Shown: positions 34,395 through 64,000, counted from the stretch's first letter. The stretch is 64,000 bases of DNA from Nocardiopsis chromatogenes YIM 90109 (GCF_000341185.1 NZ_ANBH01000130.1:1156-65155), one strand, 5' to 3'. Notes: generated from the letters alone by a model not told the origin. A program made the numbers and translations.

Positions 34395-34417
34395 GAATTC
34401 CGGGAATTCGGGAATTC
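34395..34417. repeat. Three closely spaced GAATTC sites
   Basis: GAATTC at 34395, 34404 and 34412, giving a short GGGAATTC direct repeat. They lie between the large helicase-nuclease and the exonuclease-like gene, the third overlapping the helicase stop codon. Confidence 0.7.
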
Positions 34418-43804: not shown

Positions 43805-43902
43805 TGGACTCTCCTCATCACCACGACCCACGAACTCTCGTCCACGGTGAACTCGGGCGGCGGGTTCCCGTTCTTCTCCACGAGGCCTCCCCCCGGCTTC
43901 AC
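43801..43902 (-). CDS. 33-residue ORF wedged between HATPase and ParA-like genes
   Basis: GTG start at 43902 overlaps the HATPase stop (GTGA), and its own TGA overlaps the ParA-like GTG (GTGA). The peptide runs MKPGGGLVEKNGNPPP then EFTVDESSWVVVMRRVQ. It is not recognised. Four-base overlaps on both sides are the pattern of real, translationally coupled genes, and the sequence is less Arg/Pro-dominated than noise frames here. It could be a coupling peptide, a partner of either protein, or a purely translational relay. Confidence 0.6.
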   Translation of the reverse strand: MKPGGGLVEKNGNPPPEFTVDESSWVVVMRRVQ

Positions 43903-46100: not shown

Positions 46101-49100
46101 ATGCCCAGCACAACCGAAGAGCGCCCCGCCCCGGGATCGCTCGTCGCCGTCCGCGGACAGAAGTGGGTCGTCAGCGATGTCGACCACGCCGACGGCGGCA
46201 CCCTGGTGACCCTGCAGAACACCGACAGCGGCCGCTACGGCGAGACCCTGAGCGTCCTGTGGGAGATCGAGCCCGGACGGCGGGTCCTCCCCCGCGGCTC
46301 CCTCCCCCCGGTCTCCCCCGACCGCTTCGACCCGCCCGAGCGCCTGGCCGCCTTCCTCGACGCGGTGCGCTGGTCAGCGGTCACCTCGGCCGACACCCGC
46401 ACCCTCCAGGCCCCCTTCCGCTCCGGCGTGGCCATCGAGGACTACCAGCTCGAACCGGTCACCCGCGCGGTCGGCGCCCCGCGCGTGAACCAGCTCCTCG
46501 CCGACGACGTCGGCCTCGGCAAGACGGTCGAGGCCGGGCTGGTCGCCCAAGAGCTGCTGCTGCGCCACCGGGCCCAGCGCATCATGGTCGTCTGCCCCGC
46601 CGGGCTGACGGTCAAGTGGAAGGACGAGATGGCCGAGAAGTTCGGCCTGGACTTCACCGTCATCGACTCCGACCGCTGCGCCCAGGTCCGCCGGGACTAC
46701 GGCAGCGCGGCCAACCCGTTCAAGGTCTACCCGCTCACCATCGTCAGCCTGTCCTGGCTGCGGGGCCCCAAGGCCCAGCGCCTCCTCGACGAGGTCCTGC
46801 CCGCCGGCGGCGCCATGGGCCCCGAGGACCGCGTGTTCGACCTGCTCATCCTGGACGAGGCCCACCACGTGGCTCCGGCCGCCCCCAAGCAGGTCTACGC
46901 CGTGGACTCCCAGCAGACCAAGCTCATCCGCCGCCTGGCCCCGCACTTCACGCACCGGCTGTTCCTGTCGGCCACCCCGCACAACGGCTACCAGGCCTCG
47001 TTCACCGCCCTGCTGGAGATCCTGGACGACCAGCGCTTCGCGCGCGGGGTCGAGCCCGACCCGGCCGCCGTCAAGGACACGGTGGTGCGCCGCCTCAAGC
47101 GCGACATCACCGACGCCGACGGCAACCCCCGTTTTGTCGAGCGGGACGCCCGCTCCCTGCCGGTCGACTACCCCGACAGCGAACGGAAGATCCACGGCCT
47201 GCTCACCCGCTTCGCCGAGCTTCGCCGCAGGAAGCTCACCACCCGCCGCGGCCGTAAGGCCACCGACCTGGTCACCCTCCTGCTGAAGAAGCGCCTGTTC
47301 TCCAGCCCCGCCGCCTTCGCGCACACGGTGGAGGTCTACCTGGAGACGCTGCGCGCCAAGGGGCGCCCGCTCGACCCGTTCGCCGACGGGGACGGCGAGG
47401 ACGAGGTCCCCGAGTGGATGGAGGACTTCTACGACGAAGCCGCGGCCTACAACGACGAGGAGCTCGCCGAGGCCGAGGACGACGCCCTCGACCGCACGCG
47501 CCCGATGCAGCCCGACCCGGACGACGACGAGACCGCGCTGCTGGAGCGCATGCTCGAATGGGCCCGGGACCACGAGGCGCTGCCCGACGCCAAGGCGTCC
47601 AAGCTCATCGAGTACCTGACGGCGGTCTGCAAGCCCGGCGGGCACTGGACCAACGAGCGCGTCGTCGTGTTCACCGAGTACCGCGACACCCTCGACTGGC
47701 TCCGCGAACTCCTCCGCCAGCAGGGCCTGGGCGGCGACCGGGTGGCCGAGCTCCACGGCGGCCTGGGCACCGACGAGCGGGAGCGGCTGCGGGTCGCCTT
47801 CCAGAAGGAGCCGTCCGAGCACCCGGTGCGCATCCTGCTGGCCACCGACGCCGCCAGCGAGGGCATCGACCTCCAGCGCCACTGCCACCGCCTGGTCAAC
47901 TACGACATCCCGTTCAACCCGAACAAGCTGGAGCAGCGGATCGGCCGCATCGACCGATACGGCCAGACCCGCACGCCGGAGATCCGCCACTTCGTGGGCA
48001 CCGGATGGGACACGGCCGTCGACTCCTATGAGGCCGACCTGGAGTTCCTGTCCCGTGTGGCCACCAAGGTCGCCCGCATGGAGGAGGACCTGGGGTCGGT
48101 CAACGCGGTGCTCTCGGACGCCGTGCAGCGCCGGATGCTCGGCCAGGGCGCACCGGTGGACGTGGACGCGGCCGGCGCCAAGGGCGACCGAGTGCCGTCC
48201 GAGGCCAACGTCCGCGAGCAGGTGCGCCGGGTCCGGACCGAGCTGGAGCGGACCGTCGAGGAGCTGGGCATCACCCCCGTGCGGGTCAAGCGGGTCGTGG
48301 ACACGGCGCTGGGCCTGGCCCGCCAGCAGTCCCTCCGCCCGCACGTGGACGAGAGGCACTTCGCCGAAGGCATGTTCGAGGTCCCGCCGCTGACCGGTTC
48401 GTGGGTGCGGGCCACCGAGGGACTGACCGAGAAGCCCGCAGCGGGCGCCGCGGACGGCGGCAAGAGGCACGGCGGCAAGCGCGACGAGCCGCTGCGCCAG
48501 CTCCCCGTCACCTTCGACCCGGAAGTGGCCAAGGGCCGCGACGACGTGGTGCTGGCCCACCTCAACCACCCCTTGGTGGCGATGTCCACGCGGCTGCTCC
48601 AGACGGCGGTCTCCAACGACCAGGTGGGCCTGGACCGCGTCACCGCGGTCGTCAGCGACGATCCGGAGCTGGAGGACGTGCTGGTCGGCGCCTTCTCCCG
48701 GTTCGTGCTGGTGGGGGCCGACGGTATGCGCCTGCACGAGGAGGTGCTGCACGCGGGCGGCTGGCTGCCCGAGGGCGGGCGCTTCCGCCGCCTGGAGAAC
48801 CTGGGCGCGCTGCGCGGGATGCTCGACCGGGGACTGACCGACGGCACGCCGCTGGCGGGCCCGGTCTGGCACCGGATCCACCAGCGGTGGACCGACCGCG
48901 CCTCGGACGGCCTGATGAAGGCGATCGAGTGGCGCAAGGAGACCCGGCTGGAGTCGCTGCGCCGCAGGCTGGAGCAGCGCGAGGCCGAGGAGCGCGAGCG
49001 CGCGACCGAGGTCATCGACCGGTTCAGCGCCACCCTGCGGGCGGCGCTGGCCGAGGACGACGCGGACGCCGAGAACGCGCTGTTCAGCACGGCGGAGATC

Positions 49101-49292
49101 ACCCGCACCAGCAAGGAAGAGCGCGAGCAGTACCGGAAGGACCGGATGAACTGGGAGAAACGGTTGGACGAGCTGGCCGCCGAGCGCGACCGCGAGCTGA
49201 AGGCGATCGCGGCCCGCTACAGCCGCCAGGAGCCGCACTCCTTCCCCGTCGCCGTCGTCTTCGTCGTTCCGAAGCGGGAGGCCGTCCGATGA
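46101..49292 (+). CDS. drmD: DISARM SNF2-like helicase DrmD
   Basis: A 1,063-residue SNF2-family ATPase, the first gene of class 1 DISARM, an anti-phage system that restricts DNA lacking the host methyl mark. N-terminal SH3-like strand region (LVAVRGQKWVVSDVDHA), ATPase core with LADDVGLGKTVEAG (Walker A, near 135), LLILDEAHHV (near 252), LFLSATPHNGYQ, and C-terminal half with VVFTEYRDTLDWL, LLATDAASEGIDLQ and KLEQRIGRIDRYGQ. The C-terminal 350 residues are a long accessory region rich in Arg/Glu coiled coil. ATG at 46101 follows AGGAAG. Its stop overlaps drmMI (ATGA). Confidence 0.92.
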   Translation: MPSTTEERPAPGSLVAVRGQKWVVSDVDHADGGTLVTLQNTDSGRYGETLSVLWEIEPGRRVLPRGSLPPVSPDRFDPPERLAAFLDAVRWSAVTSADTRTLQAPFRSGVAIEDYQLEPVTRAVGAPRVNQLLADDVGLGKTVEAGLVAQELLLRHRAQRIMVVCPAGLTVKWKDEMAEKFGLDFTVIDSDRCAQVRRDYGSAANPFKVYPLTIVSLSWLRGPKAQRLLDEVLPAGGAMGPEDRVFDLLILDEAHHVAPAAPKQVYAVDSQQTKLIRRLAPHFTHRLFLSATPHNGYQASFTALLEILDDQRFARGVEPDPAAVKDTVVRRLKRDITDADGNPRFVERDARSLPVDYPDSERKIHGLLTRFAELRRRKLTTRRGRKATDLVTLLLKKRLFSSPAAFAHTVEVYLETLRAKGRPLDPFADGDGEDEVPEWMEDFYDEAAAYNDEELAEAEDDALDRTRPMQPDPDDDETALLERMLEWARDHEALPDAKASKLIEYLTAVCKPGGHWTNERVVVFTEYRDTLDWLRELLRQQGLGGDRVAELHGGLGTDERERLRVAFQKEPSEHPVRILLATDAASEGIDLQRHCHRLVNYDIPFNPNKLEQRIGRIDRYGQTRTPEIRHFVGTGWDTAVDSYEADLEFLSRVATKVARMEEDLGSVNAVLSDAVQRRMLGQGAPVDVDAAGAKGDRVPSEANVREQVRRVRTELERTVEELGITPVRVKRVVDTALGLARQQSLRPHVDERHFAEGMFEVPPLTGSWVRATEGLTEKPAAGAADGGKRHGGKRDEPLRQLPVTFDPEVAKGRDDVVLAHLNHPLVAMSTRLLQTAVSNDQVGLDRVTAVVSDDPELEDVLVGAFSRFVLVGADGMRLHEEVLHAGGWLPEGGRFRRLENLGALRGMLDRGLTDGTPLAGPVWHRIHQRWTDRASDGLMKAIEWRKETRLESLRRRLEQREAEERERATEVIDRFSATLRAALAEDDADAENALFSTAEITRTSKEEREQYRKDRMNWEKRLDELAAERDRELKAIAARYSRQEPHSFPVAVVFVVPKREAVR

Positions 49293-52200
49293 GCGCACCC
49301 ACCACCGCCGCACGCCGGCGCCGCACCACCGGCGAGGACAGCGCCGAGCAGCACCGCAACTGGCTGAGCCTGATCGAGGTCGACGGGCCGTTCCTGACGC
49401 TGCCGGTGCTGCGCGCCACCTGGCCCGCGCGGCTCGAACCGCTCGACAAGGAGGAGCGCGCCCGGATGCGCCGCGAGCACGCGCGCTGGCAGGCCGCCTC
49501 GGCCACGACGGCCGGGCAGCAGGCGTGGATCCGCTACCTGCTCGCGGACATGCTGGCGTGGGGCGATGACCTGCACCTGGCGGCCCGGGGCCCGGAGGAG
49601 GGTGCCGAGGGGAACGGTGCGGAGCGCGCCGGGGCGGCGTCCGCGAGCGACGGCGCCACGGGCGAGGACGGGGGCGGGGACACGGACGCCGCCGCGCTCG
49701 ACGCCCTGGCGCTGGAGGTCCCCGAGCACGAGACCCGCGTCGTCCCGTCGTTCGTGCTGACCGCGCCGGGTGAGGCCGTCAAGCCGGACACCGTGCGGGT
49801 GCTGGGGCTGGTGTGCCCGCCCGGCCAGCAGCCCACCGCCCGGATCAAGGGCGAGGCGTGGGCCGCCAGCCCGGCGGACCGGCTGGCGCAGCTCTGCCGC
49901 CACCACGGGGTGGAACTGGGGCTGGCCACGGACGGCCGATGGTGGGCGCTGGTGTGGGCGCCGCGCGGAGGCGTGACGACCACCGCCGTCTTCGACACGG
50001 CGGTGTGGAACGAGCGCGCCGAGCGGGACGTGGTGGAGGCGTTCCACTCCCTGCTGTGCCGGCGCCGGTTCTTCGGCGTGCCGGACGAGGAGACGCTGGT
50101 CCGGCTGCTGGCCAAGAGCCAGGACGGGCAGGAGGAGATCACCGAGGCCCTGGGCGTGCAGGTGCGCCAGGCGGTGGAGCTGCTGGTCGCGGCGTTCGGC
50201 CGGGCCGACACCAAGCTGCGCGAGCGCGGCGAGCCCGACCTGTCCGAGGTCGACGCGCACGAGGTCTACCGGGGCGCGGTCTCGGTGATGATGCGCGTCG
50301 TCTTCCTGCTCTTCGCTGAGGAGCGCGGGCTGCTGCCCTCGGACAACGACCTCTACCTGAAGTCGTACTCGGCGGGTCGGCTGTGCGCGGAGCTGGAACA
50401 GCGCGCGCTGGAGGGCAGCGAGGACGAGCTGGAGGAGACCTACACGGCCTGGCACCGGCTGCTGGCCCTGTTCGAGGCGGTGTACCAGGGCGTGGACCAC
50501 CCGCGCCTGCGCATGCACCCGCACGACGGGTCGCTGTTCAACCCGGCCGAGTTCCCCTGGATGCCGCTGCTCATCGACGACCGCACGGTGCTGCACATGC
50601 TGCGGTCGGTGCAGTACGTGGTGGTCGGCAAGGGCAAGAGCAAGGAGCGGCGGGCGCTGTCGTTCCGGTCGCTGGACGTCGAGCAGATCGGGTACGTGTA
50701 CGAGGGCCTGCTCTCCTTCGACGGGTACCGGGCCGAGAGCGAGACGGTCGGACTGACCGGCAAGGTCGGGGCCGAGGAAGAGGTAGAGCTGCGGCGGCTG
50801 GAGGAGATGGCCGCACAGTGCGCCGACGTTCCCGCGCTGGCGGCCAAGCTGGCGGCGGAGTTCAAGGACTCGGGGATCGGGTCGGCCCGCGCGCTGGAGA
50901 AGAAGCTCGCGCCGCTGTCCGGGGTGGAGAAGGAAGAGGCCCGGAAGAAGGTTCAGGCGGCGGTCGGCAACGACCAGGCGCTGGTGGAACGGCTGATGCC
51001 GTTCTACGGGGTGCTGCGGGAGGACCTGCGGGGCCTGCCGTTCGTAGTGCTGCCGGGTGAGCTGTACGTGACGGAGTCGTCGCTGCGGAAGAACACGGGG
51101 ACGCACTACACGCCGAGGTTCCTGGCGGAAGAGGTCGTTGAGGGGGCCTTGGAACCGCTGGTGTACGAGCCGGGGCCGCTCCAGACCGCGAACAAGGACG
51201 AGTGGAAGCTCAAGTCCAGCCGGGAGATTCTGGACCTGAAGGTCGCCGACATCGCGATGGGGTCGGCCGCCTTTTTGGTGGCGGCGGCGCGCTACCTGGG
51301 CGACAAGCTTCTGGAGGCGTGGACGAACGAGGGCGACGAGCGGGTCCGCGACTACACGCCGGGGAGCGACGGCGCGAGCGCGGATGAGGACCCGGTGGTG
51401 ATCGAGGCACGGCGCCAGATCATCGAGCACTGCCTGTACGGGGTGGACATCAACCCGATGGCGGTGGAGATGGCGAAGCTGTCGCTGTGGCTGGTGTCGA
51501 TGGACCCGGAGCGGCCGTTCACGTTCTTGGACGACCGGCTGGCGGCCGGGGATTCGCTGTTGGGGATCACGTCTTTGGAGCAGCTTGAATACATGCACAT
51601 GGACCCGAAGAAGGGGAGGGAGATCCATTCCGAGGGGGCGTTGATCGACTTCACGTCGGGTGTGCGTGAGCTAGTGGAGCGAGTTGCGGAACGGCGTCGC
51701 GAGGTCACTGAAATCGACGGCGCCACCTTGGAAGGCCTCGTTCGCAAGCGCGAGCATCTGAAGGAGGCCGAACTTGATTTGGAGCAGGCGCGCCTCTTGG
51801 CAGATCTCACCGTGGGGGCCGCTTTGGCATACGCCACCCAGGGAGAACGTGAGCAACAGAGCGGCGCACTCACCTCTGCTGACCTAGCACGAAGGATTGA
51901 GGCTGCTAATGCAGAGGCAAGAGTTCAGGCCCAGGAGTGGCTAGACACAGGGCGCCCTTCTGAGTCCTTCACCCGAACCCCCATCCACTGGCCCCTCACC
52001 TTCCCGGAAGTGTTCGCCAAAGAAGGCTTCGACGCAATTATCGGAAACCCACCTTTCCTTGGAGGCAAGAAAATAAGCGGCTCCACAGGGGGCGCATACA
52101 GGGAATACCTCGTAAAGAATATCGCAACCAACAAAAAGGGAAATGCAGACCTTGTTGCATACTTCACTCTTCAAGGTCACGCAATCACTAACAAGAATGG

Positions 52201-53479
52201 CCAGCTCGGGATTATAGCCACTAACTCCCTAGCTCAGGGAGATACCCGCGAAGTCTCGCTCGACCAATTGCCCAAGCGGGGAGTCACTCTGCGGCGCGGG
52301 ATAAGTAGCACCCCTTGGCCTTCCAGGAGTGCAGCCCTTGAATTCTGCGCCATCTGGACAAGCAAATATGAACCAAAAAAAGAATCGTCAACCATCTTGG
52401 ATGGCACTATCGTCCCCGGGATAACCCCAAGCCTCACACCGAGAAGTAGAATCTCTACGCCCCCTAAGCGCCTTGCGGCAAATCGAGGCCTTTCCCACAT
52501 TGGAGTTCTGGTCAACGGAACTGGGTTCACACTCGACGAGAGGCGCGCCTCGGAGTTCATCTTAGACGACGCCAAGAACTCCAGAGTCCTCCACCCATAC
52601 CTCAATGGCCAGGACCTAAACACAGACCCAACCTGCTCAGCTTCACGATGGATTGTCGACTTCAACGACCTCCCAATCGACGAAGCAAGCAACTACAAGC
52701 TACCATTTAAATGGGTCACAGAAAGAGTAAAACCGGAACGCGAACAGAATAAGCGCAGATCGTACCGCGAACGCTGGTGGCAGTATGCAGAGAACCAAAA
52801 CTCGATGCGATCCGCCATCGCCAACCTGCAACGCATTATCGCTATCACCTCCGTCAGCAAGAGTGCAATACCGGCAGCACTTCCCACTGGGCAGATCTTT
52901 TCCCATATGCTAGCCGTTTTCGCAACCGAAGACATGGCTATGCTATCCCTACTCACAAGTTCCCCACATTATTGGTGGGCAAAATCCCGCGGTTCATCCA
53001 TGAAGGCTGACCTTCGCTACACCCCCTCCGACGTCTTCGAGACCTTCCCTCTCCCCGAGCTCACCCAGGAGATGCGTGACCTCGGCGAGCACCTCGACAC
53101 CTACCGCCGGGACGTCATGCTCTCCCGGGACTCTGGCCTGACCAAGACCTACAACCTCGTCTTCGACCCCGACTGCAACGACGAGGACATCGTCGAACTC
53201 CGCCGCATCCACCGCGAGATCGACGAGGCCACCATCCGCGCCTACGGCTGGGAGGACCGCATCGAAGCCGTCGGCGGGCTCGACCACGGCTTCCACAAGG
53301 TCGGCGGGCGCGAGACCCGCTACACCATCGGCCCGGCCGCCCAGCGCGAAGTTCTCGACAGCCTCCTCGAACTCAACCACGAGCGCTACGCCGAAGAGGT
53401 CGCCCAGGGCCTCCACGACAAGAAGAAGTCCGGCAAGTCCAAGAAGAAGGCCGCCGACGACGAAGGGACGCTGTTCTGA
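49289..53479 (+). CDS. drmMI: DISARM adenine methyltransferase DrmMI
   Basis: A 1,396-residue Eco57I-type N6-adenine methylase that marks host DNA in class 1 DISARM. Motif I is DIAMGSAAFLVAAARYLGDK (near 655), preceded by GTHYTPRFLAEEVVE; the linker has YGVDINPMAVEMAKLSLWLV, and motif IV is IIGNPPFLGGKK (near 920). The specificity part runs from there to about 1250, and the tail has DCNDEDIVELRRIHREIDEA. From about 51640 to 53030 the DNA is much lower in GC than the rest of the gene, with rarer codons, as if this target-recognition part came from another source. ATG at 49289 overlaps drmD. Confidence 0.92.
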   Translation: MSAPTTAARRRRTTGEDSAEQHRNWLSLIEVDGPFLTLPVLRATWPARLEPLDKEERARMRREHARWQAASATTAGQQAWIRYLLADMLAWGDDLHLAARGPEEGAEGNGAERAGAASASDGATGEDGGGDTDAAALDALALEVPEHETRVVPSFVLTAPGEAVKPDTVRVLGLVCPPGQQPTARIKGEAWAASPADRLAQLCRHHGVELGLATDGRWWALVWAPRGGVTTTAVFDTAVWNERAERDVVEAFHSLLCRRRFFGVPDEETLVRLLAKSQDGQEEITEALGVQVRQAVELLVAAFGRADTKLRERGEPDLSEVDAHEVYRGAVSVMMRVVFLLFAEERGLLPSDNDLYLKSYSAGRLCAELEQRALEGSEDELEETYTAWHRLLALFEAVYQGVDHPRLRMHPHDGSLFNPAEFPWMPLLIDDRTVLHMLRSVQYVVVGKGKSKERRALSFRSLDVEQIGYVYEGLLSFDGYRAESETVGLTGKVGAEEEVELRRLEEMAAQCADVPALAAKLAAEFKDSGIGSARALEKKLAPLSGVEKEEARKKVQAAVGNDQALVERLMPFYGVLREDLRGLPFVVLPGELYVTESSLRKNTGTHYTPRFLAEEVVEGALEPLVYEPGPLQTANKDEWKLKSSREILDLKVADIAMGSAAFLVAAARYLGDKLLEAWTNEGDERVRDYTPGSDGASADEDPVVIEARRQIIEHCLYGVDINPMAVEMAKLSLWLVSMDPERPFTFLDDRLAAGDSLLGITSLEQLEYMHMDPKKGREIHSEGALIDFTSGVRELVERVAERRREVTEIDGATLEGLVRKREHLKEAELDLEQARLLADLTVGAALAYATQGEREQQSGALTSADLARRIEAANAEARVQAQEWLDTGRPSESFTRTPIHWPLTFPEVFAKEGFDAIIGNPPFLGGKKISGSTGGAYREYLVKNIATNKKGNADLVAYFTLQGHAITNKNGQLGIIATNSLAQGDTREVSLDQLPKRGVTLRRGISSTPWPSRSAALEFCAIWTSKYEPKKESSTILDGTIVPGITPSLTPRSRISTPPKRLAANRGLSHIGVLVNGTGFTLDERRASEFILDDAKNSRVLHPYLNGQDLNTDPTCSASRWIVDFNDLPIDEASNYKLPFKWVTERVKPEREQNKRRSYRERWWQYAENQNSMRSAIANLQRIIAITSVSKSAIPAALPTGQIFSHMLAVFATEDMAMLSLLTSSPHYWWAKSRGSSMKADLRYTPSDVFETFPLPELTQEMRDLGEHLDTYRRDVMLSRDSGLTKTYNLVFDPDCNDEDIVELRRIHREIDEATIRAYGWEDRIEAVGGLDHGFHKVGGRETRYTIGPAAQREVLDSLLELNHERYAEEVAQGLHDKKKSGKSKKKAADDEGTLF

Positions 53480-56400
53480 TGTCCTCCGACGGGCTCTTCC
53501 CCAACCCCAACGGGGAGCAGACCTCCCTCGACGCGACCGGCGCTGCCCCTCCCCCGCCCTCCGCGCAGGACGCGCAGGGCAAGGACGACACGACCGACCA
53601 GCCCAAGCCCCGCACCGGCCCCGCCCTCACCGACCCCCAGGAGCTCATCGACCGCCTCGACACCCCCCAAACCTTCAGCGGCGCCTCCTCCTACCAGGTC
53701 CGCGACGAGTTCCAAGAGCTCGTCGCCCGCGACCTCCTCGGCCCCTGGGGCGGCGACTACGAGGAGTTCGCCCCGCGCGCCCGCGGCCCCCGGGAGCGCT
53801 ATCTCGTCGGCATGCTCGGTCCCCGCGACAAGCCCGCCGCCTCGCACACCGCCGACGCCGGGGACCTCGCCGACACCGAGGCCGGCGTCGGCGGCAGCGC
53901 CAAGGGCGAGGAGGGCGGCGAACTCCCCGACGTCGTCACCACCCAGAACCTCGGGCACATCTGGGCCTCCTCCATGGGCCTGGCGTTCACCGTCGCCGAC
54001 GAGACCGACGCCCTGTCCGTCACCGCCTCCTGGGGCGAGTACTCCCGCCGCACCATCACCGACGACGACGGCAAGTCCCGCACCACCTGGGCCCGGGATC
54101 CGCGCACCTACATGCGCGAGGTCCGCCTGGACGGCGACCGGAACCAGCGCATCGGCCTCACCGCCGCCGACACCGACACCCCCGGCGTCTACCTCGACGT
54201 CGCCGTGCGCCCCCGCGACGGCCGCCGCACCGTCGAGCTGACCCTCATCAACGGCCAGCAGCAGCCCTCCACCACCCCCGACACGGCCTGGCTGTTCCAG
54301 ACCCGCCTGGCCGTCACCGCCCGCGACGGCGGCTCCCCCGTCTTCCTCCCGATCGACGACCCGCTGGACCCGGCCCAGCCCGCCCCTCCGCAGGCCGACA
54401 CCGAGGACCTTCGCCTCCGTCTGCTCTACCGCAACCAGCTCTCCTACGCCCGGGGCCGCAACGTCGCCGTCCAGGAGGACGCTGACCCCGAGCTGCGCCG
54501 GGCGCGCAGGCTGGAGACCACCTGGCTGCCCACCTACGACGTCCCGCCGACCAGCGCCCCCTCCGGACCGGGCACGCCGCTCGAAGGCACCGAGCTGTCC
54601 ATGGACGCCTTGGCCGCGGCCTCCCCCGAGGAGCTGGCCTCCGGCCTGGCGCCGCTCGCCGACGGCTACTCCGCCTGGCTGGACGAGCGCGAGGCCGAGA
54701 TCGGCGGCCTGCCCGAATCCCTGCGCGGCACCGCCGAGGCCGCCGTCTTCCAGGCCCGCAGCGCCGCCGAGCGCATCCGCGCCGGGATCGACCTGCTCTC
54801 CGACCCGTCGGCGCCCGGCCACGACGACGCCCTGCGCGCCTTCCGCTTCGCCAACCGGGTGATGGCCGACCAGCGCCGCCACACCGAGATCGGGCGGCTC
54901 CGCGAGGACCGCGACCGCTCCTACGCCGACGCCGAGCGCGCCGTGCGCGAGCGCGGCCCCTCCGCCGCCTCCTGGCGCCCCTTCCAGCTCGCCTTCGTGC
55001 TGCTGAACCTGCCCTCCCTGGCCTCCCCCTCGCACCCCGAGCGGGCCGCCTCCCCGCGCGCGCTCGTGGACCTGCTGTTCTTCCCCACCGGCGGCGGCAA
55101 GACCGAGGCCTACCTGGGGCTCACCGCGTTCACCTTCGCCATCCGCCGCCTCCAGGGCATTGTCGGTTCCGGCGAGGACGCCCGGTCCGGGATGGCCGGG
55201 GTCGCCGTGCTCATGCGCTACACGCTGCGCCTGCTCACCGCTCAGCAGTTCCAGCGCGCCGCCTCGCTGGTGTGCGCCGCCGAGGTGGAGCGCCGCGCCG
55301 ATCCCGACACATGGGGCGAGGAGCCCTTCCGCATCGGCCTGTGGGTCGGCGGCGGGGTCTCGCCCAACTGGTACAAGGAGGCCGAGGACCAGATCCGGGA
55401 CGCCCGCGAGGCCGGCCACGGCGAGCGCACCAACGTCCTGCAGACGCTCGCCTGCCCGTGGTGCGGGGAGGAGCTGACCGCCCAGCGCGACCTGGAGCCC
55501 GACCCGGTCGCCCGGCGCGTGCGCCTGTTCTGCCCCAACGGCGAGGGGACCGACGCCTGCCCCTTCTCCAAGCGCTCCTCCGCCGACGGCCTTCCCATCC
55601 TCACCGTCGACGAGGAGATCTACCGGTACACCCCCAGCCTGGTCATCGCGACCGTGGACAAGCTGGCGCGGCTCCCCTGGAGCGGGTACGCGGGCATGCT
55701 CTTCGGCCGGGTCCGGGAGCAGTGCCCCCGGCACGGGTTCCGCCACGACGACCTGGACCGCAAGACCGACTGCCGGAGCAGGCACACCGCGAAGGCGGGC
55801 TACCCCGCGGCCACCAGCCGCCCCGTCCCCCGGCTGCGTCCGCCGGACCTGATCATCCAGGACGAGCTGCACCTGATCTCCGGGGCGCTGGGCACCACGG
55901 TCGGGCTGTTCGAGTCCGCCGTGGACCGGCTGTGCACCTGGACCGCCCCCGACGGCTCGCGCACCGCGCCCAAGATCGTGGCCTCCACCGCCACCACCAA
56001 GCGCGCGGAAGCCCAGGTGCGCGGGGTGTTCGCCCGCGACCTGCGGATCTTTCCCCCGCAGGTCACCGACGTGGCCGACACCTTCTTCTCCCAGCAGGTG
56101 CCGATCTCGGAGAGCTCGCCGGGCCGCCGGTACATGGGGGTGTGCGCACACGGGGTGCGGCTGAAGTCGGCCGAGATCCGGCTGGCGGAGATCCTGCTCA
56201 TCGCCGGGCAGACCATGTTCGACGCGCACGGCGAGGCGGCCGACCCGTACATGACGACGGTCGGCTACTTCAACGCCACCCGGGAGCTGGCGGGCATGCG
56301 GCGCTACGTGGACGACGACGTGGTCACCCGGGTGCGCCGCAACGGCCGCGCGAAGGGGCTGTCCAACCGGCTGCAGGGCACCACCCAGCTCCTGGAGGTC

Positions 56401-57435
56401 CAGGAGCTCACCTCGCGCGTGTCCTCGGGCGACATCAGCCGGGTCCTCAAGGGGCTGGAGGTGCCGTTCGACCCCGAGCTGGACACCTCCGACCGCAAGC
56501 GGACCATCATCCAGCACGGGGCGGCGATCATGCGCGGCCGCGGCGGCGGCTCGCGGCCCAAGCAGCCCGAATACCACCCGCTGGCGGACCAGCGCATGCT
56601 GCGCGCCCGGGAGGGCCGGGTCCCGGTGGACATGGTGCTGGCCACGTCCATGCTCCAGGTGGGCGTGGACGTGTCCCGGTTCGGGCTGATGATGGTGACC
56701 GGGCAGCCCAAGAACACGGCCGAGTACATCCAGGCCTCCTCCCGCGTGGGCCGTGACGCCCGTCGGCCGGGCCTGGTGGTGACGCTGTACAACTGGACCC
56801 GACCGCGCGATCTGGCGCACTTCGAGGACTTCCGGAACTACCACGCCTCCTTCTACCGCGAGGTTGAGGCGCTGTCGGTCACCCCGTTCACCCGCCGCTC
56901 GCTGGACCGGGGCACCGCGGCGGCGTTCGTGGCGGCCGTGCGCAACCTGGCCGAGGAGTACTCGCACAACGCCGACGCCCAGGACGTGGACTTCAACGGC
57001 GATGTCGTGGAGGACGTGGTGCAGCACCTGTTGGAGCGCGCCGAACAGGTGGGGGGCGAGCGCGGGCGCGCCTATCTCGCTGAGCGCATCAACGTCCTGA
57101 AGGACGTGTGGAACACCAAGCGCTCCGGGGAGACGCGGCTGGGATACGACCGCGAGTCCTCCGGCCCCACCCGGTTGGTGGAACTGCTCAACCGTCCCGG
57201 CGAGGGCCCCTGGATGGCGACCACCGTCGGCATGTCCATGCGCGAGACCGAGAACGAGGTCAACCTCCTCCTGCCCAGGGACGGACGCTTCTTGAACCCG
57301 CCGGTCGGTGCTCCTGAGTGGTCCTTCGCGCCGGGCGGTGCGGACGGCGCCGGTGCCGCGGGCACCGAGGACGACACCGACGAGCTCGGCCAGTCCGCCT
57401 TCGACACCAAGCAGGCCCGGGAGGGGAACCGATGA
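53479..57435 (+). CDS. drmA: DISARM SF2 helicase DrmA
   Basis: A 1,318-residue helicase, one of the three core DISARM proteins. After a disordered Pro/Gly N-terminus and a beta-rich region (about 60-330), the helicase carries FFPTGGGKTEAYLGLTAFTF (Walker A, near 536), a zinc-like Cys cluster (CPWCGEEL, CPNGEGTDACPF), IIQDELHLISGALGTT (motif II written DELH, near 795), VASTATTKRA, TSMLQVGVDVSRFGLMM and QASSRVGRDARRPG (motifs V and VI). These are DrmA hallmarks. ATG at 53479 shares one base with the drmMI stop (TGATG). Its stop overlaps drmB. Confidence 0.94.
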   Translation: MSSDGLFPNPNGEQTSLDATGAAPPPPSAQDAQGKDDTTDQPKPRTGPALTDPQELIDRLDTPQTFSGASSYQVRDEFQELVARDLLGPWGGDYEEFAPRARGPRERYLVGMLGPRDKPAASHTADAGDLADTEAGVGGSAKGEEGGELPDVVTTQNLGHIWASSMGLAFTVADETDALSVTASWGEYSRRTITDDDGKSRTTWARDPRTYMREVRLDGDRNQRIGLTAADTDTPGVYLDVAVRPRDGRRTVELTLINGQQQPSTTPDTAWLFQTRLAVTARDGGSPVFLPIDDPLDPAQPAPPQADTEDLRLRLLYRNQLSYARGRNVAVQEDADPELRRARRLETTWLPTYDVPPTSAPSGPGTPLEGTELSMDALAAASPEELASGLAPLADGYSAWLDEREAEIGGLPESLRGTAEAAVFQARSAAERIRAGIDLLSDPSAPGHDDALRAFRFANRVMADQRRHTEIGRLREDRDRSYADAERAVRERGPSAASWRPFQLAFVLLNLPSLASPSHPERAASPRALVDLLFFPTGGGKTEAYLGLTAFTFAIRRLQGIVGSGEDARSGMAGVAVLMRYTLRLLTAQQFQRAASLVCAAEVERRADPDTWGEEPFRIGLWVGGGVSPNWYKEAEDQIRDAREAGHGERTNVLQTLACPWCGEELTAQRDLEPDPVARRVRLFCPNGEGTDACPFSKRSSADGLPILTVDEEIYRYTPSLVIATVDKLARLPWSGYAGMLFGRVREQCPRHGFRHDDLDRKTDCRSRHTAKAGYPAATSRPVPRLRPPDLIIQDELHLISGALGTTVGLFESAVDRLCTWTAPDGSRTAPKIVASTATTKRAEAQVRGVFARDLRIFPPQVTDVADTFFSQQVPISESSPGRRYMGVCAHGVRLKSAEIRLAEILLIAGQTMFDAHGEAADPYMTTVGYFNATRELAGMRRYVDDDVVTRVRRNGRAKGLSNRLQGTTQLLEVQELTSRVSSGDISRVLKGLEVPFDPELDTSDRKRTIIQHGAAIMRGRGGGSRPKQPEYHPLADQRMLRAREGRVPVDMVLATSMLQVGVDVSRFGLMMVTGQPKNTAEYIQASSRVGRDARRPGLVVTLYNWTRPRDLAHFEDFRNYHASFYREVEALSVTPFTRRSLDRGTAAAFVAAVRNLAEEYSHNADAQDVDFNGDVVEDVVQHLLERAEQVGGERGRAYLAERINVLKDVWNTKRSGETRLGYDRESSGPTRLVELLNRPGEGPWMATTVGMSMRETENEVNLLLPRDGRFLNPPVGAPEWSFAPGGADGAGAAGTEDDTDELGQSAFDTKQAREGNR

Positions 57436-59357
57436 GCGCCCAGAGCGGCAAGTACCGGCGCCGGGTCGGCGCCGTCCGTCCCAGCCACCTCATGTTCACC
57501 ACCGGGGTGGGCGCGCTGGTGGACCTGCCCAACATCGCGGTGCTGGTGCGCGGCGTGGACGACTGGAACTACGACGACGTCCCGGACTGGGAGCCGATCA
57601 CCGAGCCCCGGCTGCTGCGCGAACTCAACAGGTTCCACGACGGCCGCCACGTCAAGCAGCTCCGCCCGGCTCCGTGGCTCGACGGCTTGGACGCCGACCC
57701 GAACGGCCCGGCGGCGCGCGTCGGCGTCCCGGTCATGCCGTTCCCGACGTGGCTGCGGTGCACGGCCTGCAACGAGCTCGCGAGTCTGGACTCCAAGGCC
57801 TTCGACTTCGAGAACGACAAGCCCCGTCGGCCCCAGGACGCGCGCTTCTTCCACCGGGGCTGCCCGAAGAAGCGGAAGGGGAAGCCGCCGCTGGCGGTCG
57901 CCGCCCGCTTCGTCCTGGCCTGTTCGCAGGGGCACCTCGACGACTTCCCCTACGCCCACTTCGTGCACGAGGGGGCGGACTGCCCCAAGGCGCCGCAGCC
58001 CAAGCTCCAGATGGACGACCGCGGCGGCAACATCGGCGCCAACGTCTCGATCCGCTGCATGGCGTGCCAGCAGCACCGCAACATCCGCGACGCCCTGGGC
58101 GAGCGCGGCCGGGACGAGCTGCCCGCCTGCCGGGGGCGCCACCCCCACCTGAGCGTGTTCGAGCAGTCGGGCTGCAAGCAGCGGCCGGTCGTGCTGGTGG
58201 TGGGCGCCTCCAACCAGTGGTTCGCCCAGACCCTGTCGGTGCTGTCGGTCCCCGAGGGCGGGGCGAGCGACCTTCAGATGAAGGTGGTGGAGCACTGGGA
58301 GCTGTTGAGCAAGCTCGGCGACCCGAAGATGATCGTTCTCGCGCGGGAGCACATCCCGGAGTTCAAGCAGTTCGCAAAGTGGTCGGACGATGAGATCGTC
58401 GCTGCGATCGAGAAGGTCGGCGCCGCCAAGGAAGCCGAAGCCTCCGGTGATTCCGGCGCCGATCAGGAGCAGGGTCAGCCGGACCTGCTCACCCCTGAAT
58501 GGGAGGTCTTCTCCGCCCCCGAGGCGCCGGAGCCCACGGACGACTTCGCCCTCTACCGCGCCCCCGAGGGCGTCCCCGAATCGCTGGCGCCCTACTTCTC
58601 CGACGTGGTGCAGGCCGAGCGCCTGCGCGAGGTCCGCGCGCTGCGTGCGTTCACCCGCCTGGACGCCCCCGACCCCGAGGACCCGGACCTGGTGTCTCGG
58701 GCGCCCCTCAGCCGCGGCGAACTGACCTGGGTCCCGGCCAGCGAGGTGCGGGGCGAAGGGATCTTCCTCCGCGTCCCCGAGGAGGTGCTGAGCGGCTGGG
58801 AGGAGCGCATCGCCGGCAGCGATGCCCTGCGCCTGCACCAGGAGGCCTACAAGCAGTTCCGCATCAACCGCTACTCGGGGCGCATCCCCGGCGGCTTCGA
58901 CCCGATGCGGCTGTGGCCGGGTGCGCGCTACATCGCCCTGCACACCCTCTCCCACCTGATGATCCGCGCGATCGCCCTGGAGTGCGGCTACAACGCGGCC
59001 AGCCTTTCCGAGCGCATCTACGCCGGGGACGAGGAGGACCCGCGCGGCGGCATCCTCGTCTACACCGCCGTGCCCGACGCCGAGGGCACCCTGGGCGGCC
59101 TGGTCTCCCAGGCCGCGCCCGAGCGACTCGTCCCGCTGGTGGACAAGGCGCTCAAGGGCGCGATGCGCTGCTCCTCGGACCCCTTGTGCCGTGAGCGCCT
59201 GCCCCAGCCCCACGCCGACTTCCTGCACGGCGCCGCGTGCCACGTGTGCCTGTTCGTCTCGGAGACCACCTGTGAGAAGGGCAACCGCTTCCTGGACCGC
59301 CGCTTCGTCGTCCCGGTGGACGACCCGAAGCTGGCGCTGTATCCGGAGCTGCCGTAG
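57432..59357 (+). CDS. drmB: DISARM protein DrmB (DUF1998)
   Basis: A 641-residue core DISARM protein with DUF1998. It starts MSAQSGKYRRRVGAVRPSHL and shows Cys-rich zinc sites: LRCTACNELAS (near 108), CSQGHLDDFPYAHFVH, IRCMACQQHRNI (near 209) and the C-terminal DUF1998 site HGAACHVCLFVSETTCEKGN. HTLSHLMIRAIALECGYNAA is the conserved DUF1998 helix. In DISARM it works with DrmA as a DNA-binding complex (literature knowledge). An acidic linker lies at about 335-360. ATG at 57432 overlaps the drmA stop (ATGA). Confidence 0.94.
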   Translation: MSAQSGKYRRRVGAVRPSHLMFTTGVGALVDLPNIAVLVRGVDDWNYDDVPDWEPITEPRLLRELNRFHDGRHVKQLRPAPWLDGLDADPNGPAARVGVPVMPFPTWLRCTACNELASLDSKAFDFENDKPRRPQDARFFHRGCPKKRKGKPPLAVAARFVLACSQGHLDDFPYAHFVHEGADCPKAPQPKLQMDDRGGNIGANVSIRCMACQQHRNIRDALGERGRDELPACRGRHPHLSVFEQSGCKQRPVVLVVGASNQWFAQTLSVLSVPEGGASDLQMKVVEHWELLSKLGDPKMIVLAREHIPEFKQFAKWSDDEIVAAIEKVGAAKEAEASGDSGADQEQGQPDLLTPEWEVFSAPEAPEPTDDFALYRAPEGVPESLAPYFSDVVQAERLREVRALRAFTRLDAPDPEDPDLVSRAPLSRGELTWVPASEVRGEGIFLRVPEEVLSGWEERIAGSDALRLHQEAYKQFRINRYSGRIPGGFDPMRLWPGARYIALHTLSHLMIRAIALECGYNAASLSERIYAGDEEDPRGGILVYTAVPDAEGTLGGLVSQAAPERLVPLVDKALKGAMRCSSDPLCRERLPQPHADFLHGAACHVCLFVSETTCEKGNRFLDRRFVVPVDDPKLALYPELP

Positions 59358-59370
59358 CGGGAGGGCAGGG

Positions 59371-60159
59371 ATGAACGCGACGGTGGACAGCCCCGGCCCC
59401 TCCGCCTTCGAGGCGGCGGCGGAGGAGGCGGCCTCCCGCCTGGGCGGCGCGCTCCTTCGGGAGGTCGCGGGGCGGATCGGCCAGGGGTGGCCCGACCAGG
59501 CGATCCTGGGCTCCTCCCGGGACTCGGGCGGGGTGGCGCCGCTGTTGGAGGCCCGCAGGTCCGCCAGTGTGCCGCGTGCGGAGGCCGCGGCCTTCCTGCG
59601 CGGCCTGGCGGCCGGGTACGCCCGGGGCAGCGGCGCGGTGTCGGTGGAGACCGTGTGGAGCGGCCCGGCCAGCCACGCCGTCCCGACCCGGGCGACCGCG
59701 CAGGCCCTTCTGGAGGTCATCGAGGAGGCGCGCTCCGAGCTGGTGCTGATGACCTACTCGGCCCGCCGCAACGACGCCATCCGGCAGGCCCTCGCGGCGG
59801 CCGCCGAGCGGGGCGTGCGCATCGACGTGGTCGTGGAGACGCTCGAAGGGGCGGGCAGCGCCCTGGGCGGTGACCAGCCCGGGGCGGCCTTCGCCGGGCT
59901 GGACGGGGTCGGCCTGTGGCACTGGCCGCTCGCCCGGCGCACGGAGAAGGGGGCCAAGTCGCACGCGAAGCTGGCGGTCGCCGACCGGCGGGTGCTGCTG
60001 GTCTCCAGCGCCAACCTGACCCAGTCCGGGGTGGCCCGCAACATCGAGGCGGGCCTGCTGGTGCGCGGAGGCGAGACTCCCCGGCGGGTGGCCGAGCACA
60101 TCGCCGAGCTGCGGGCGCGCAAGGTGCTCGCCCCCCTGGCGGCGGGGGGCGCGGCGTGA
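59371..60159 (+). CDS. drmC: DISARM phospholipase-D-fold nuclease DrmC
   Basis: A 262-residue protein with a single clear PLD half-site, SHAKLAVADRRVLLVSSANL (His198, Lys200), preceded by ELVLMTYSARRNDAIRQALA and GVRIDVVVETLEG. This is the layout of DrmC, the third core DISARM component; the nuclease is dispensable in some tested systems (family knowledge). The N-terminal 110 residues are helical. ATG at 59371, 13 bases after the drmB stop, with a GGAGGGCAGGG ribosome site. Its stop overlaps the next gene (GTGA). Confidence 0.92.
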   Translation: MNATVDSPGPSAFEAAAEEAASRLGGALLREVAGRIGQGWPDQAILGSSRDSGGVAPLLEARRSASVPRAEAAAFLRGLAAGYARGSGAVSVETVWSGPASHAVPTRATAQALLEVIEEARSELVLMTYSARRNDAIRQALAAAAERGVRIDVVVETLEGAGSALGGDQPGAAFAGLDGVGLWHWPLARRTEKGAKSHAKLAVADRRVLLVSSANLTQSGVARNIEAGLLVRGGETPRRVAEHIAELRARKVLAPLAAGGAA

Positions 60160-61976
60160 CCCGGGACGCGATGGTCAGCGCCGCCGACATCGCGCGGCTG
60201 GCGGGGGTCGGCCGGTCGGCGGTGAGCAACTGGCGCCGGCGGTTCACCGACTTCCCCCGACCGGTCGCCGGGGCGCCGTCCAATCCGCTGTTCGCACTGG
60301 AAGAGGTCGAACAGTGGTGCTTGGAGCGGGGAAAGCCGTTCGAGGCCGATGACCTGGACCGGCTTTGGCAGCGGGTGCAGGCGGAGGTGGAGGGCGTCCG
60401 GCTCGCCGAGTTCGTCGCGCACGCCGGGGCGGCCCTCAGCGGTGGGCACGGGGCGGGGGTACCGGAGCCGCCGGAGGAGTGGTCCCCGCTCTTCGAGGCG
60501 CTCGCCGCAGCGGCCGAGAAGGCCGACGACGGCGCGGTCGGCGTGTTCTCGCGGCTGTGCGAGCGCTTCCGGGCCGCCCGGGAGCGCGCCTCGGAGGTGG
60601 AGCCGGAGGTCGCCGAGGCCATGGCGGGGCTGGCGGGCGTCGGGCACGGGTCCTCCGTGCTCGACCCGGCCTGCGGGACGGGCGTGCTCCTGCGGGCCGC
60701 AGCCTCCCGAGGGGCCGCCCTGCTGTGGGGGCAGGACCGCGACCCCGCCCACGCCGAGATCGCCCGCGCGCGCCTGGTCCTCATGGGCGGCGATGTGGAA
60801 GAGGTGGAGGTCGCCGTCGCCGACTCCCTGAAGGCGGACGCCCTCGGCGACCGACGGGCCGACGCCGTGCTGTGCGACCCGCCCTTCCGCGATCGCCACT
60901 GGGGCTGGGAGGAGCTGGCCGACGACGAGCGCTGGGCCTACGGCACCCCGGCGCGCGGCGAAGGGGAGCTGGCGTGGGTCCAGCACTGCCTGTCGCGCCT
61001 CCGGCCGGGCGGTGTCGCCGTGGTGCGAGTGCCCGCCTCGGCGGCCCACCGGCCCTCGGGAAGGCGCATACGGGCGGCGCTGGCGGCCTCGGGGGCCCTG
61101 CGCAGCGTCACCGAGCTGCCCGGGGGCCAGTCCCTCGTCTGGGTGCTGGAGCGCCCCGACGGGGAGTCCGGGCGGAGCGAGTCCCCGGGGGTGGAGTTCG
61201 TGCTGTCCGGCGATACGGCCGAATCGTGCCTGCTCGACCGCGCGGAGCTGGTGGATGAGGCCGACCTGCGCCCCTCCTCGCACGTGCCGCGGAGGGAGCC
61301 CGACGCCTCGTACGCGCAGTGGCGCACGGCCCTGCTGTCGGCCGTCAACGGCCTTGCGGAGGCCCCGCCGGTCCTCGTCCCCGGTGACGCCCCCAGTGAC
61401 CCCGAAGGCTCGGCCGCGGCCGTGAGCAGCGTCGGGGAGCTGGTGGACCAGGGTGTGCTCGAACTGCACACCGCCCCATTGGCCACCCCGGCCGACCGGG
61501 GCACCGTTCCCCTGCTCACCCACAAGGACCTGCGCGAGGGCCGCGCCCCCGGCGGCCGCACCGTCGAGTCGGCCGACCGGGTGGTCCTGCGCCCCGGGGA
61601 CGTGGTCGCCTCCGCCGCGGGCGACGTCTCCCCGCGCGTCGCCGGGGCGGCGGAGTCGGGCGCCGCGATCGGGCCGAGCCTGGTCGTGCTGCGGGCCGAC
61701 CCCGAACGGATCGACCCGGACTACCTGGCCGCGGCGCTCACCGCGGGCCCGGCCCACAGGCTCCGCAACGACCCCCGCAAGGCCCGCATCGCCCTGCTTC
61801 CATTGGAGCGGCAGCGCGCCCACATCACGGCCCTGCGCCGCCTGGCCGACACGGAGAGACGCCTGGCGCACCTGGCCGAGCTCGGCGCCCGCCTGGTCGA
61901 GGCGGGGCGGTCGGGCCTGGCCGACCGGTCCCTTGCCCCCGCCCACCCCACGGCCCCCGAGGAGAAACGCCCATGA
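60156..61976 (+). CDS. N6-adenine methylase fused to specificity domain, DISARM-linked
   Basis: A 606-residue protein not part of the textbook class 1 DISARM set. Residues about 8-60 are a MerR/excisionase-type HTH (SAADIARLAGVGRSAVSNWR). Residues about 140-350 are an HsdM-like methylase: VLDPACGTGVLLRAAASRGA (motif I) and VLCDPPFRDRHWGWEEL (motif IV as DPPF). Residues about 440-600 resemble an HsdS target-recognition half (VPLLTHKDLREGRAPGG, VVLRPGDVVASAAG, LLPLERQRAHITALRRLADT). It may add a second host mark or act as a DNA sensor. GTG at 60156 overlaps drmC; its stop overlaps the kinase ATG. Confidence 0.85.
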   Translation: MTRDAMVSAADIARLAGVGRSAVSNWRRRFTDFPRPVAGAPSNPLFALEEVEQWCLERGKPFEADDLDRLWQRVQAEVEGVRLAEFVAHAGAALSGGHGAGVPEPPEEWSPLFEALAAAAEKADDGAVGVFSRLCERFRAARERASEVEPEVAEAMAGLAGVGHGSSVLDPACGTGVLLRAAASRGAALLWGQDRDPAHAEIARARLVLMGGDVEEVEVAVADSLKADALGDRRADAVLCDPPFRDRHWGWEELADDERWAYGTPARGEGELAWVQHCLSRLRPGGVAVVRVPASAAHRPSGRRIRAALAASGALRSVTELPGGQSLVWVLERPDGESGRSESPGVEFVLSGDTAESCLLDRAELVDEADLRPSSHVPRREPDASYAQWRTALLSAVNGLAEAPPVLVPGDAPSDPEGSAAAVSSVGELVDQGVLELHTAPLATPADRGTVPLLTHKDLREGRAPGGRTVESADRVVLRPGDVVASAAGDVSPRVAGAAESGAAIGPSLVVLRADPERIDPDYLAAALTAGPAHRLRNDPRKARIALLPLERQRAHITALRRLADTERRLAHLAELGARLVEAGRSGLADRSLAPAHPTAPEEKRP

Positions 61977-63605
61977 GCGGCGCCGCCCCCGCCCCCCCGG
62001 CCCCTGCTCGCCGAGCGCTACGAGCTCAAGCCGACCCCGATGGCGCGCGGCGGTATGGGCGAGGTCTGGGAAGGGCACGACACCCGGCTGGACCGCGAGG
62101 TCGCCGTCAAGTTCCTGCGCTTCCCCGACGGCGAGCACGACCCGGACCTGGTGCGCCGGTTCGTCCGCGAGTCGCGCATCACGGCCCGCCTGTGCCACCC
62201 CGGCGTCCCCGGCGTCTACGACGCGGGCACCGAGAACGGGCGCCCCTACCTGGTGATGCAGCGCATCCACGGGATCAGCGTGGCCGACCTGGTGGCCGAG
62301 GAGGAGCGGCTGCCGGTCGGCTGGGCGGCGGCGATCGCCGCCCAGGTGTGCGCGGTGCTCACCGCCGCGCACCGCCGGTCGCTGGTGCACCGCGACCTCA
62401 AGCCCACCAACCTGATGCTGGAGCCGGACGGCACGGTCAAGGTGCTGGACTTCGGGCTGGCGGTCGCGCTGGACCGCTCCGACGGCTCGCGGATCACCCG
62501 GACGGGCGAGTCGCCCGGCACCCCCGCCTACATGGCCCCCGAGCAGGTCATGAGCGGCATGAGCACGCCCCAGACCGACCTGTACTCGCTCGGCTGCACG
62601 CTGCACGAGATGCTGACCGGACGCCGCGTGTTCACCGGATCCACTCCGTTCGCGGTCATGCACGGGCAGGTCCACCAGGCCCCGCGCCCGGTGCGGGAGC
62701 TGCGCCCGGACGTGCCCGCCGACCTGGACGCGGTGATCGATCGGATGCTCAGGAAGCGGCCGGAGGACCGGCCCGGCGGGGCCGAGGAGGTCTACCGCGC
62801 ACTGCTGCCCTTCGCGGCCGCGCTGGGGCCGCTGCCGGGGGTCCTCGACCCGCCGTCGGTGCCCAGTCCGACCCGGATGCAGGCCTCGGTCCTTGAGCGG
62901 GTCTTCGCCGAGGCGGCCGGTGTCGGCGGGCCGTCCGGGCAGGGAGGGGCCGGGCACGGGGTGGCCGACCGCAGGGCCGGCCCGGTCGAGACCGCCGCCG
63001 GGGAGGGCGGCGACGGCGGCACCTCGTCCATGACGCGGCTGGACATCGCCCATGCCCGTTCGGAGGCCGCCGCCCTGTCCGGCTCCTCGCGCTACCGGCA
63101 GGCCGCCGACGTGCTGCAGGCCGCCGTGGCAGCGGCACGGGGCGTCTTCGGACCGAACGACGGCGACGTGGTCGAACTGCGCATGGACCTGGCCAACATC
63201 CTGTTCGAGGGCGGCGACTTCCGCGCGGCCGAGCCGGAGTTCTCCGCCCTCGCCGCCGACTTGGCCGAGGCCGGGGCCCCGTCCGACGGGTCCCTGGTGT
63301 TCCGCTGCCGCTTCCAGGCCGCCACCTGCCGCGCCCTCGCCGGGGAGACGGCGAGCGCCCTGGAGGAGCTGCAGGCGCTGCGGGCGGACGAGGAGCGCGC
63401 CTACGGGGCCGATGACGCCCGCCCCCTGGAGCTGCGGCGCCAGATCGGGCTCCTCCAGCGGGGCGCGGGCCAGCACGCCGAAGCCCACGCGACCCTCACC
63501 GCCCTGGCCGAGGACCTGTTGCGCATCCACGGGCCCGGCCATCCGACCCTCGAACAGGTCACCGACCTGCTCGACCCCCCGCACGGCGGGCAGGCCGGCG
63601 TCTAG
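61973..63605 (+). CDS. Ser/Thr protein kinase at the end of the DISARM operon, apparent frameshift at a C7 run
   Basis: A Hanks-type kinase of about 540 residues. Motifs: RGGMGEVWEGHD (Gly loop), REVAVKFL (ATP Lys), LVHRDLKPTNLML (catalytic loop), VLDFGLAVAL (DFG), GTPAYMAPEQV (APE) and DLYSLGCTLHEM. The C-terminal 200 residues are TPR-like helices. No transmembrane helix is seen. The ATG at 61973 overlaps the methylase stop (ATGA) but opens the wrong frame. The expected kinase N-terminus, PLLAERYELKPTPMARGG, lies in the next frame. Dropping one C from the seven at about 61997-62003 joins them. An internal start at 62040 would lose the first kinase strand. Confidence 0.82.
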
Positions 63606-63672: not shown

Positions 63673-64000
63673 ATGGCGCGTCTGGCCATCCACCGGAACC
63701 TGCTGAGCGACTTCGCCTCCCTGCAGAAGCCCGTCCAGGACCGGGTGAGCGAGGTGTTCTCCAAGTTCGAGAACGCCACGCACGCGGGGCTGCACTTGGA
63801 GAAGGTGAACAAGGCGCGCGACGACCGCATCCGCACGATCCGCATCGACAAGTACTGGCGGGGCGTCGTCCTGGCCCCCGAGTCGGGCGACACCTACACG
63901 CTGCTCAAGGTCCTCGGGCACGACGAGGCCTACACGTGGGCCGAGCGCAGGCGGGTGTCGGTCAACGGCGCCACCGGCCGCATCGAGATCCGCGACGCGG
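63673..64000 (+). CDS. Start of a probable UvrD-like helicase with toxin-fold N-terminus (cut by window edge)
   Basis: The first 109 residues of a gene running off the window. They read MARLAIHRNLLSDFASLQKP, THAGLHLEKVNKARDDRIRT, KYWRGVVLAPESGDTYTLLK and VLGHDEAYTWAERRRVSVNG. This is the RelE/ParE-like N-terminal module that I recall preceding UvrD/Rep-type helicase domains in actinobacterial proteins. The helicase part is not visible, so the call rests on that resemblance; a free-standing RelE-type toxin is the alternative. ATG at 63673, 67 bases after the kinase stop and on the same strand, so it may belong to the same operon. Confidence 0.55.
   Translation, partial: MARLAIHRNLLSDFASLQKPVQDRVSEVFSKFENATHAGLHLEKVNKARDDRIRTIRIDKYWRGVVLAPESGDTYTLLKVLGHDEAYTWAERRRVSVNGATGRIEIRDA

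Follow-up and report, generated by a model that had tools for sequence, protein, structure and literature searches.

Introduction

What is a protein kinase doing in a DISARM operon? The window analysed here, a stretch of 64,000 nucleotides from Nocardiopsis chromatogenes YIM 90109, contains a class 1 DISARM locus that is followed by a gene for a second methylase-like protein (MT2) and by a gene for a Hanks-type Ser/Thr kinase (PK). To our knowledge, the way in which DISARM is restrained by its host is poorly understood. Phosphorylation control of restriction is known mainly from Pgl. A preliminary description of the locus likened the pair to Pgl and proposed that it could add either a second epigenetic mark or phosphorylation control to DISARM. 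A structural study of DISARM lists the components drmMI/drmMII, drmA, drmB, drmC, drmD and drmE and names no kinase (PMC9142583). Our own literature search for a kinase in DISARM returned nothing; as preprints and most subscription papers were beyond its reach, this is weak evidence of novelty. Class 1 DISARM is known, and its kinase/MT2 extension appears to be new.

Results

A complete class 1 DISARM operon

Five genes lying head to tail on the plus strand, from 46101 to 60159, form a complete class 1 DISARM operon in the previously claimed order drmD-drmMI-drmA-drmB-drmC. Four of the products exceed their NCBIfam cut-offs: DrmD, an SNF2-like helicase (46101..49292; NF038317, 1393 bits, cut-off 610), DrmA, a helicase (53479..57435; NF038325, 1419 bits, cut-off 950), DrmB, an MrfA Zn-binding/DUF1998 protein (57432..59357; NF038324, 706 bits, cut-off 240), and DrmC, a PLD-type nuclease (59371..60159, with the start set at ATG 59371; NF038319, 237 bits, cut-off 133). 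The drmMI gene (49289..53479), which is joined to drmD by an ATGA overlap, encodes an N6-adenine methylase with an MmeI-type target recognition domain (NPPF) and the Pfam domains Eco57I, MmeI_Mtase and MmeI_TRD. The NCBIfam scan of DrmMI gave no equivalog match, and its assignment is based on the PADLOC DrmMI model (1751 bits). The locus thus has the gene content of class 1, the drmA/drmB/drmC core plus drmD and drmMI, and matches the known system in gene order and models. Its closest DISARM relatives are found in Nocardiopsis and kin.

Many DISARM loci carry some 5-12 kb of cargo between drmMI and drmA, which sets drmD-drmMI apart from drmABC; ten such loci were recorded (upstream loci L114-L151). 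Where it was read, the cargo consists of transposases, regulators and AAA proteins. These genes were examined in several loci and considered unrelated.

MT2 combines an HsdM-like core with a half-HsdS-like tail

The drmC and MT2 genes share the GTGA overlap of the preliminary description (60156-60159). MT2 (60156..61976, +) is composed of an N-terminal HTH (residues ~1-60), an HsdM-like N6 MTase core (Pfam N6_Mtase), and a half-HsdS-like target recognition domain with a coiled coil (~421-595). A profile built from 50 MT2 relatives matches PacII M1 (7vru_A, E 1.4e-48) and other HsdM chains in the PDB, while profile positions 489-613 match the S subunits 5ybb_D and 3okg_A (E ~2e-11). The AlphaFold2 model has a mean pLDDT of 89.6 and aligns with 7vs4_A over 314 residues (Z 26.4, rmsd 3.1). 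The profile matches to S subunits and the quality of the model bear out the N6-methylase core and the HsdS-like tail of the earlier view.

The HsdM fold and the HsdS-like tail are shared with type I R-M methylases, including PacII M1 (7vru; PMC9613975). MT2 differs from these in uniting M and half of S in one chain and in carrying an N-terminal HTH. The DISARM locus contains no HsdR, and the partner of MT2 is a kinase.

The kinase and a frame break at its start

PK (62040..63605, +) is a PknB-like kinase (Pfam Pkinase, 144.8 bits) with a C-terminal TPR-like region (TPR_12). The catalytic Lys, HRDLKPTN and DFG are all present in the window copy, in agreement with the original assignment as a Hanks kinase, and of the 59 DISARM PK copies checked, 57 have an intact set of catalytic motifs.

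The MT2/kinase junction had been described as an ATGA overlap. The overlap sequence is there, but its ATG (61973) opens a 307-aa frame that is not a kinase. Three-frame translation against L067, a locus of the same-genus genome G128, places a frame break at 61973..62039 (+), and kinase homology upstream of 62040 runs on in another frame. The PK frame is one base off the overlap ATG, is closed by the MT2 stop codon (61974-61976) and offers no ATG, GTG or TTG before 62040. In G128 the start of the kinase coincides with the ATGA overlap and reads MSGDAHGPSPLLAERYEL; its counterpart in the window, LLAERYEL, lies one frame away behind a C-rich run. Because the G128 kinase begins at an intact overlap, we read the break as a sequencing error or a private mutation. 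With its frame off, the window PK as assembled would therefore either miss its first strand or use an unusual start codon.

A frameshift pseudogene was considered as an explanation. For the PK family it is rejected because the kinases of the relatives are intact, whereas for this strain it may apply. We also think it unlikely that the C-rich run is a phase-variable tract like the G-tract of pglX; the longest run behind the PK start is 7 C, and the same-genus relative lacks a run of this kind. In five other loci, a gene has been inserted immediately before PK; it lies on the opposite strand and encodes a membrane protein that has a Ser/Thr kinase domain.

The kinase is nearly constant in one DISARM clade

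The preliminary description had named uniqueness of the two genes to this strain as the outcome that would speak against it. Class 1 drmC was detected in 85 of 345 genomes of the order, extra samples were drawn from the phylum and the class, and the neighbourhoods were then read. The clade of the window was defined by a drmB at least 50% identical to that of the window, with 6.5 kb of downstream sequence at hand. PK is present in 46 of its 49 loci and MT2 in 32, so the coupling is real, and the recurrence across the clade rules out a strain-specific oddity. MT2 occurs without PK in none of the 49 loci, while 14 of the 46 PK-bearing loci are devoid of MT2. Among the 42 DISARM loci with a less similar drmB, PK and MT2 were found in none; the addition behind drmC is thus a difference between the window operon and this other DISARM clade. 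The linkage of PK to the clade has a Fisher p of 9e-23, in a test that ignores shared descent. A helicase with RelE-fold and UvrD parts is encoded in 26 of the 49 loci and a GmrSD-type protein in 24. The module therefore consists of a near-constant Hanks-type kinase with a TPR-like tail and an optional MT2, with RelE-UvrD and GmrSD-type genes often next.

In the kinase tree, the DISARM association requires 4 changes, 1 of them forced by well supported branches, which is compatible with one or few gains. The loci with PK only are dispersed over this tree (at least 6 changes), which suggests that MT2 is a dispensable partner that comes and goes while PK stays. Many relatives show translational coupling of MT2 and PK through a -3 overlap. 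In a set of 31 distinct DISARM loci, the distances of MT2 are correlated with those of PK (r 0.81), also given drmA (partial r 0.59, permutation p 0.0005). The partial correlation of MT2 with drmA given PK is 0.68 and that of PK with drmA given MT2 is 0.01, as if MT2 linked the kinase to DISARM, partial Mantel tests being too liberal (anti-conservative).

Motif IV and the recognition domain of MT2

One proposed role for MT2 is that of an active second N6-adenine methylase, adding to host DNA a second self mark that is read by DISARM. The window protein has motif I (DPACGTG, 170-176) and motif IV (DPPF, 241-244), and by these two motifs, the latter of the form (D/N/S)PP(Y/F), it is a predicted N6-adenine methylase. 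The closest solved structure, the PacII M1 subunit, is that of an active enzyme. In an alignment of 25 MT2 proteins, all from DISARM loci and including the window copy, motif IV reads DPPF/Y in 15 (the window and 14 others), DLPF in 1 and V/I/A-PPF/Y in 9, so that the catalytic D/N is exchanged for V, I or A in 9 of the 25. HPPF and APPF also occur among other MT2 proteins, and a conserved (D/N/S)PP(Y/F) motif IV is not a feature of the MT2 family as a whole. The loss is concentrated in a DISARM clade of mostly Streptosporangiaceae. It looks derived, since MT2 proteins encoded beside a PP2C phosphatase gene keep D/N-PPF in 38 of 40.

The recognition domains of DrmMI and MT2 behave differently. 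For much of its length, DrmMI of the window matches that of G128 at 95-100% identity, but within the recognition domain (residues ~1020-1200) identity to L067 and L143 falls to 30-42%, reaching 67% by residue 1260. This trough is apparently a typical specificity swap. MT2 of the window and of G128 is 58-92% identical throughout, with no trough at its recognition domain. The lack of a trough in MT2 does not fit a second mark that would have to track restriction specificity.

A second mark cannot be the general function of MT2, because 9 of 25 proteins have a degenerate motif IV and 14 PK-bearing loci lack MT2. The window copy, with both motifs intact, may add such a mark, but overall we regard a second self mark as improbable.

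Genes downstream of PK and around the operon

Although both extra genes of the preliminary description are present, its list of operon extensions was incomplete. A UvrD-like helicase gene (Pfam UvrD-helicase) begins 68 bp past the kinase; its 5' end lies in the window (63673..64000, +), and the 699-aa frame extends beyond it to L003:5773. The first 109 aa are predicted to adopt a RelE fold (model pLDDT 85.5), with a RelE toxin as the best PDB match (E 1.6e-4) and RelE-family toxins as the top matches. A GmrSD-type (DUF262) gene follows after a gap of 58 bp (L003:5831-8098, outside the window; Pfam GmrSD_N). The short spacing of PK, the UvrD-like gene and the GmrSD-type gene suggests one transcript. 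Both downstream genes could also be separate systems in a defence island.

Further defence-like genes surround the operon. Upstream of DISARM, a dense cluster occupies 28262-39170 on the minus strand. It encodes an AAA_11/12 helicase (28262-30664), a caspase-like Peptidase_C14 protein (30613-32019), a 170-aa protein without an assigned family (32016-32528) and, at 32720-34312, a protein with an RNase_T exonuclease domain. The last member (34416-39170) is a 1584-aa AAA_11/12 helicase that carries a REase_MTES_1575 domain at its C-terminus. A type IIG-like restriction-methylase gene (39099-42728, +; PADLOC PDLC03631, 868 bits) comes next, whose product is 77% identical to its G128 counterpart. 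Between this gene and drmD lie genes for a ParA-like ATPase (42770-44113, -) and a Sco1979-like regulator (44676-45533, +; 245 bits, below the cut-off of 350). On the other side, beyond the end of the window, two overlapping genes (L003:13738-17227, approximately window 73737-77226), one of them for an AAA-ATPase, look McrB/McrC-like by eye.

MT2-PK pairs outside DISARM

Actinomycetota have a large MT2 family, with at least 584 related stretches. Among the best 80 MT2 loci, 40 adjoin a PP2C phosphatase gene, usually divergent, and in nearly all of these a short kinase of ~300 aa follows MT2. The PP2C-linked loci that were read have housekeeping surroundings and no defence genes nearby; Streptomyces copies are located close to mfd-like genes. 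In the MT2 tree the PP2C set forms one clade, and the DISARM set requires 6 changes, 4 of them forced. A plasmid search with MT2 gave three partial matches only.

Such surroundings would be expected if MT2-PK were a general actinobacterial signalling pair that entered the DISARM operon by drift and plays no part in defence. We consider this very unlikely. The DISARM-linked kinases are set apart by their TPR-like tail (~500-610 aa, against ~300 aa for the PP2C-linked ones), they are conserved over many genera, and the same long kinase type recurs beside type I R-M.

A conserved stand-alone cassette of PP2C, MT2 and short Hanks kinase was seen around position 10000 in six loci and others, and ranges over Streptosporangiales and Pseudonocardiales. 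It is possibly a reversible-phosphorylation unit around a methylase-like DNA-binding protein.

Several MT2 loci adjoin other restriction systems. Three of the best 80 sit behind genes for HsdR and a YgjP-like metallopeptidase, and in one of these three (L164) a complete HsdM-HsdS-HsdR set was read. Other MT2 loci lie before an HmaA helicase gene (L167), before HsdM and HsdR genes (L208), or behind genes for a DruE-like helicase and UvrD (L158). In four Actinomadura loci a RelE-UvrD homologue is convergent with a non-DISARM MT2-PK pair, and two of these four have a type IIG-like gene further on.

Comparison with known defence systems

In Pgl (BREX type 2; PglX, PglW, PglY, PglZ), too, a DNA methylase and a Ser/Thr kinase belong to the same defence locus, and the kinase activity is required for defence (PMC4365076). 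As kinship, this likeness did not hold up. PK scores 44.9 bits with the PglW model NF033442 (cut-off 990), MT2 has no PglX match, and DrmMI reaches 20 bits with a BREX-2 model (cut-off 400). Neither pglY nor pglZ turned up in a scan that covered operon and flanking genes, part of the ORFs of the 87-kb contig. With the PglW and PglX models failing, we reject a kinship of MT2-PK with Pgl.

BREX with BrxU (PMC10952713) provides a precedent for a methylation-based defence followed by a GmrSD-type (type IV) gene. Here DISARM takes the place of BREX, and the kinase and MT2 lie between.

Models of MADS proteins match the pair over conserved domains: MT2 scores 94 bits with the PADLOC mad2 model, which is without a curated cut-off, and PK scores 217 bits with mad6. 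The gene set is unlike that of MADS, and PK reaches 128 bits with MAD6 NF047741 (cut-off 460), so the model scores leave MADS membership unsupported.

These kinase scores also bear on whether MT2-PK, alone or together with RelE-UvrD and GmrSD, works as a defence unit in its own right, for instance a kinase-based abortive infection system, and shares only a transcript with DISARM. The pair exists without DISARM, PK matches the PADLOC PD-T4-6 kinase model (PDLC04042, 303 bits) in addition to mad6, and a RelE-fold domain is next in the operon. A PP2C-linked kinase outside any defence locus scores 328 bits with the same PD-T4-6 model. The missed MAD6 cut-off, the near-absolute linkage to one DISARM clade (46/49 versus 0/42) and the housekeeping genes around the stand-alone PP2C-linked pairs all argue against independence, and we think it unlikely that the pair is such a unit.

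Discussion

We see roughly an even chance that the actinobacterial-clade class 1 DISARM has taken up a conserved kinase-based control module in which MT2 is optional. This reading is favoured over a second mark because the Pgl models fail and MT2-PK occurs without DISARM, and because the catalytic residue of motif IV is replaced in 9 of the 25 DISARM MT2 proteins and the MT2 recognition domain shows no DrmMI-like diversification. The principle has a precedent, since Pgl needs its kinase for defence. The phosphorylation control that was originally offered as one of two possibilities fits better than the second mark because the kinase is the near-constant part, and it stands as a candidate role.

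In such a module, MT2 would serve as a sensor or adapter with a fixed specificity that binds DNA, as its HTH and recognition domain suggest, and perhaps SAM, and the kinase would act together with it. Phage infection or contact with foreign DNA could trigger PK, which may phosphorylate MT2, one of the Drm proteins or the RelE-UvrD or GmrSD proteins encoded downstream, and thereby switch restriction on or off. Alternatively, phosphorylation might free the operon from being repressed through the HTH of MT2. Where the active site is intact, as in the window, methylation by MT2 would be a secondary or sensing activity. Among the points against a control module are the intact DPPF/Y of the window and 14 others of the 25 proteins, so that methylation may matter here, and the kinase frame of the window, which is broken as assembled.

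A broader and more tentative idea is that MT2-PK is a portable phospho-control module of methylation-based defences. In this view, a Hanks kinase and an HsdM/half-HsdS sensor, fixed in specificity and partly pseudo-enzymatic, would have become attached on separate occasions to actinobacterial DISARM, type I R-M, Hma and Druantia-like systems, whose restriction they would control, with RelE-UvrD as a possible effector in DISARM. We hold this to be possible, though doubtful.

As part of the MT2 family has lost the catalytic residue, an N6_Mtase gene in a defence locus need not be the source of a DNA mark. Kept in nearly all loci of one DISARM clade, PK is a concrete and testable candidate for a regulator of DISARM. 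The presence of MT2-PK beside DISARM and other restriction systems suggests that phosphorylation may control these defences, and, if this is true, phosphorylation control of restriction would be a transferable part.
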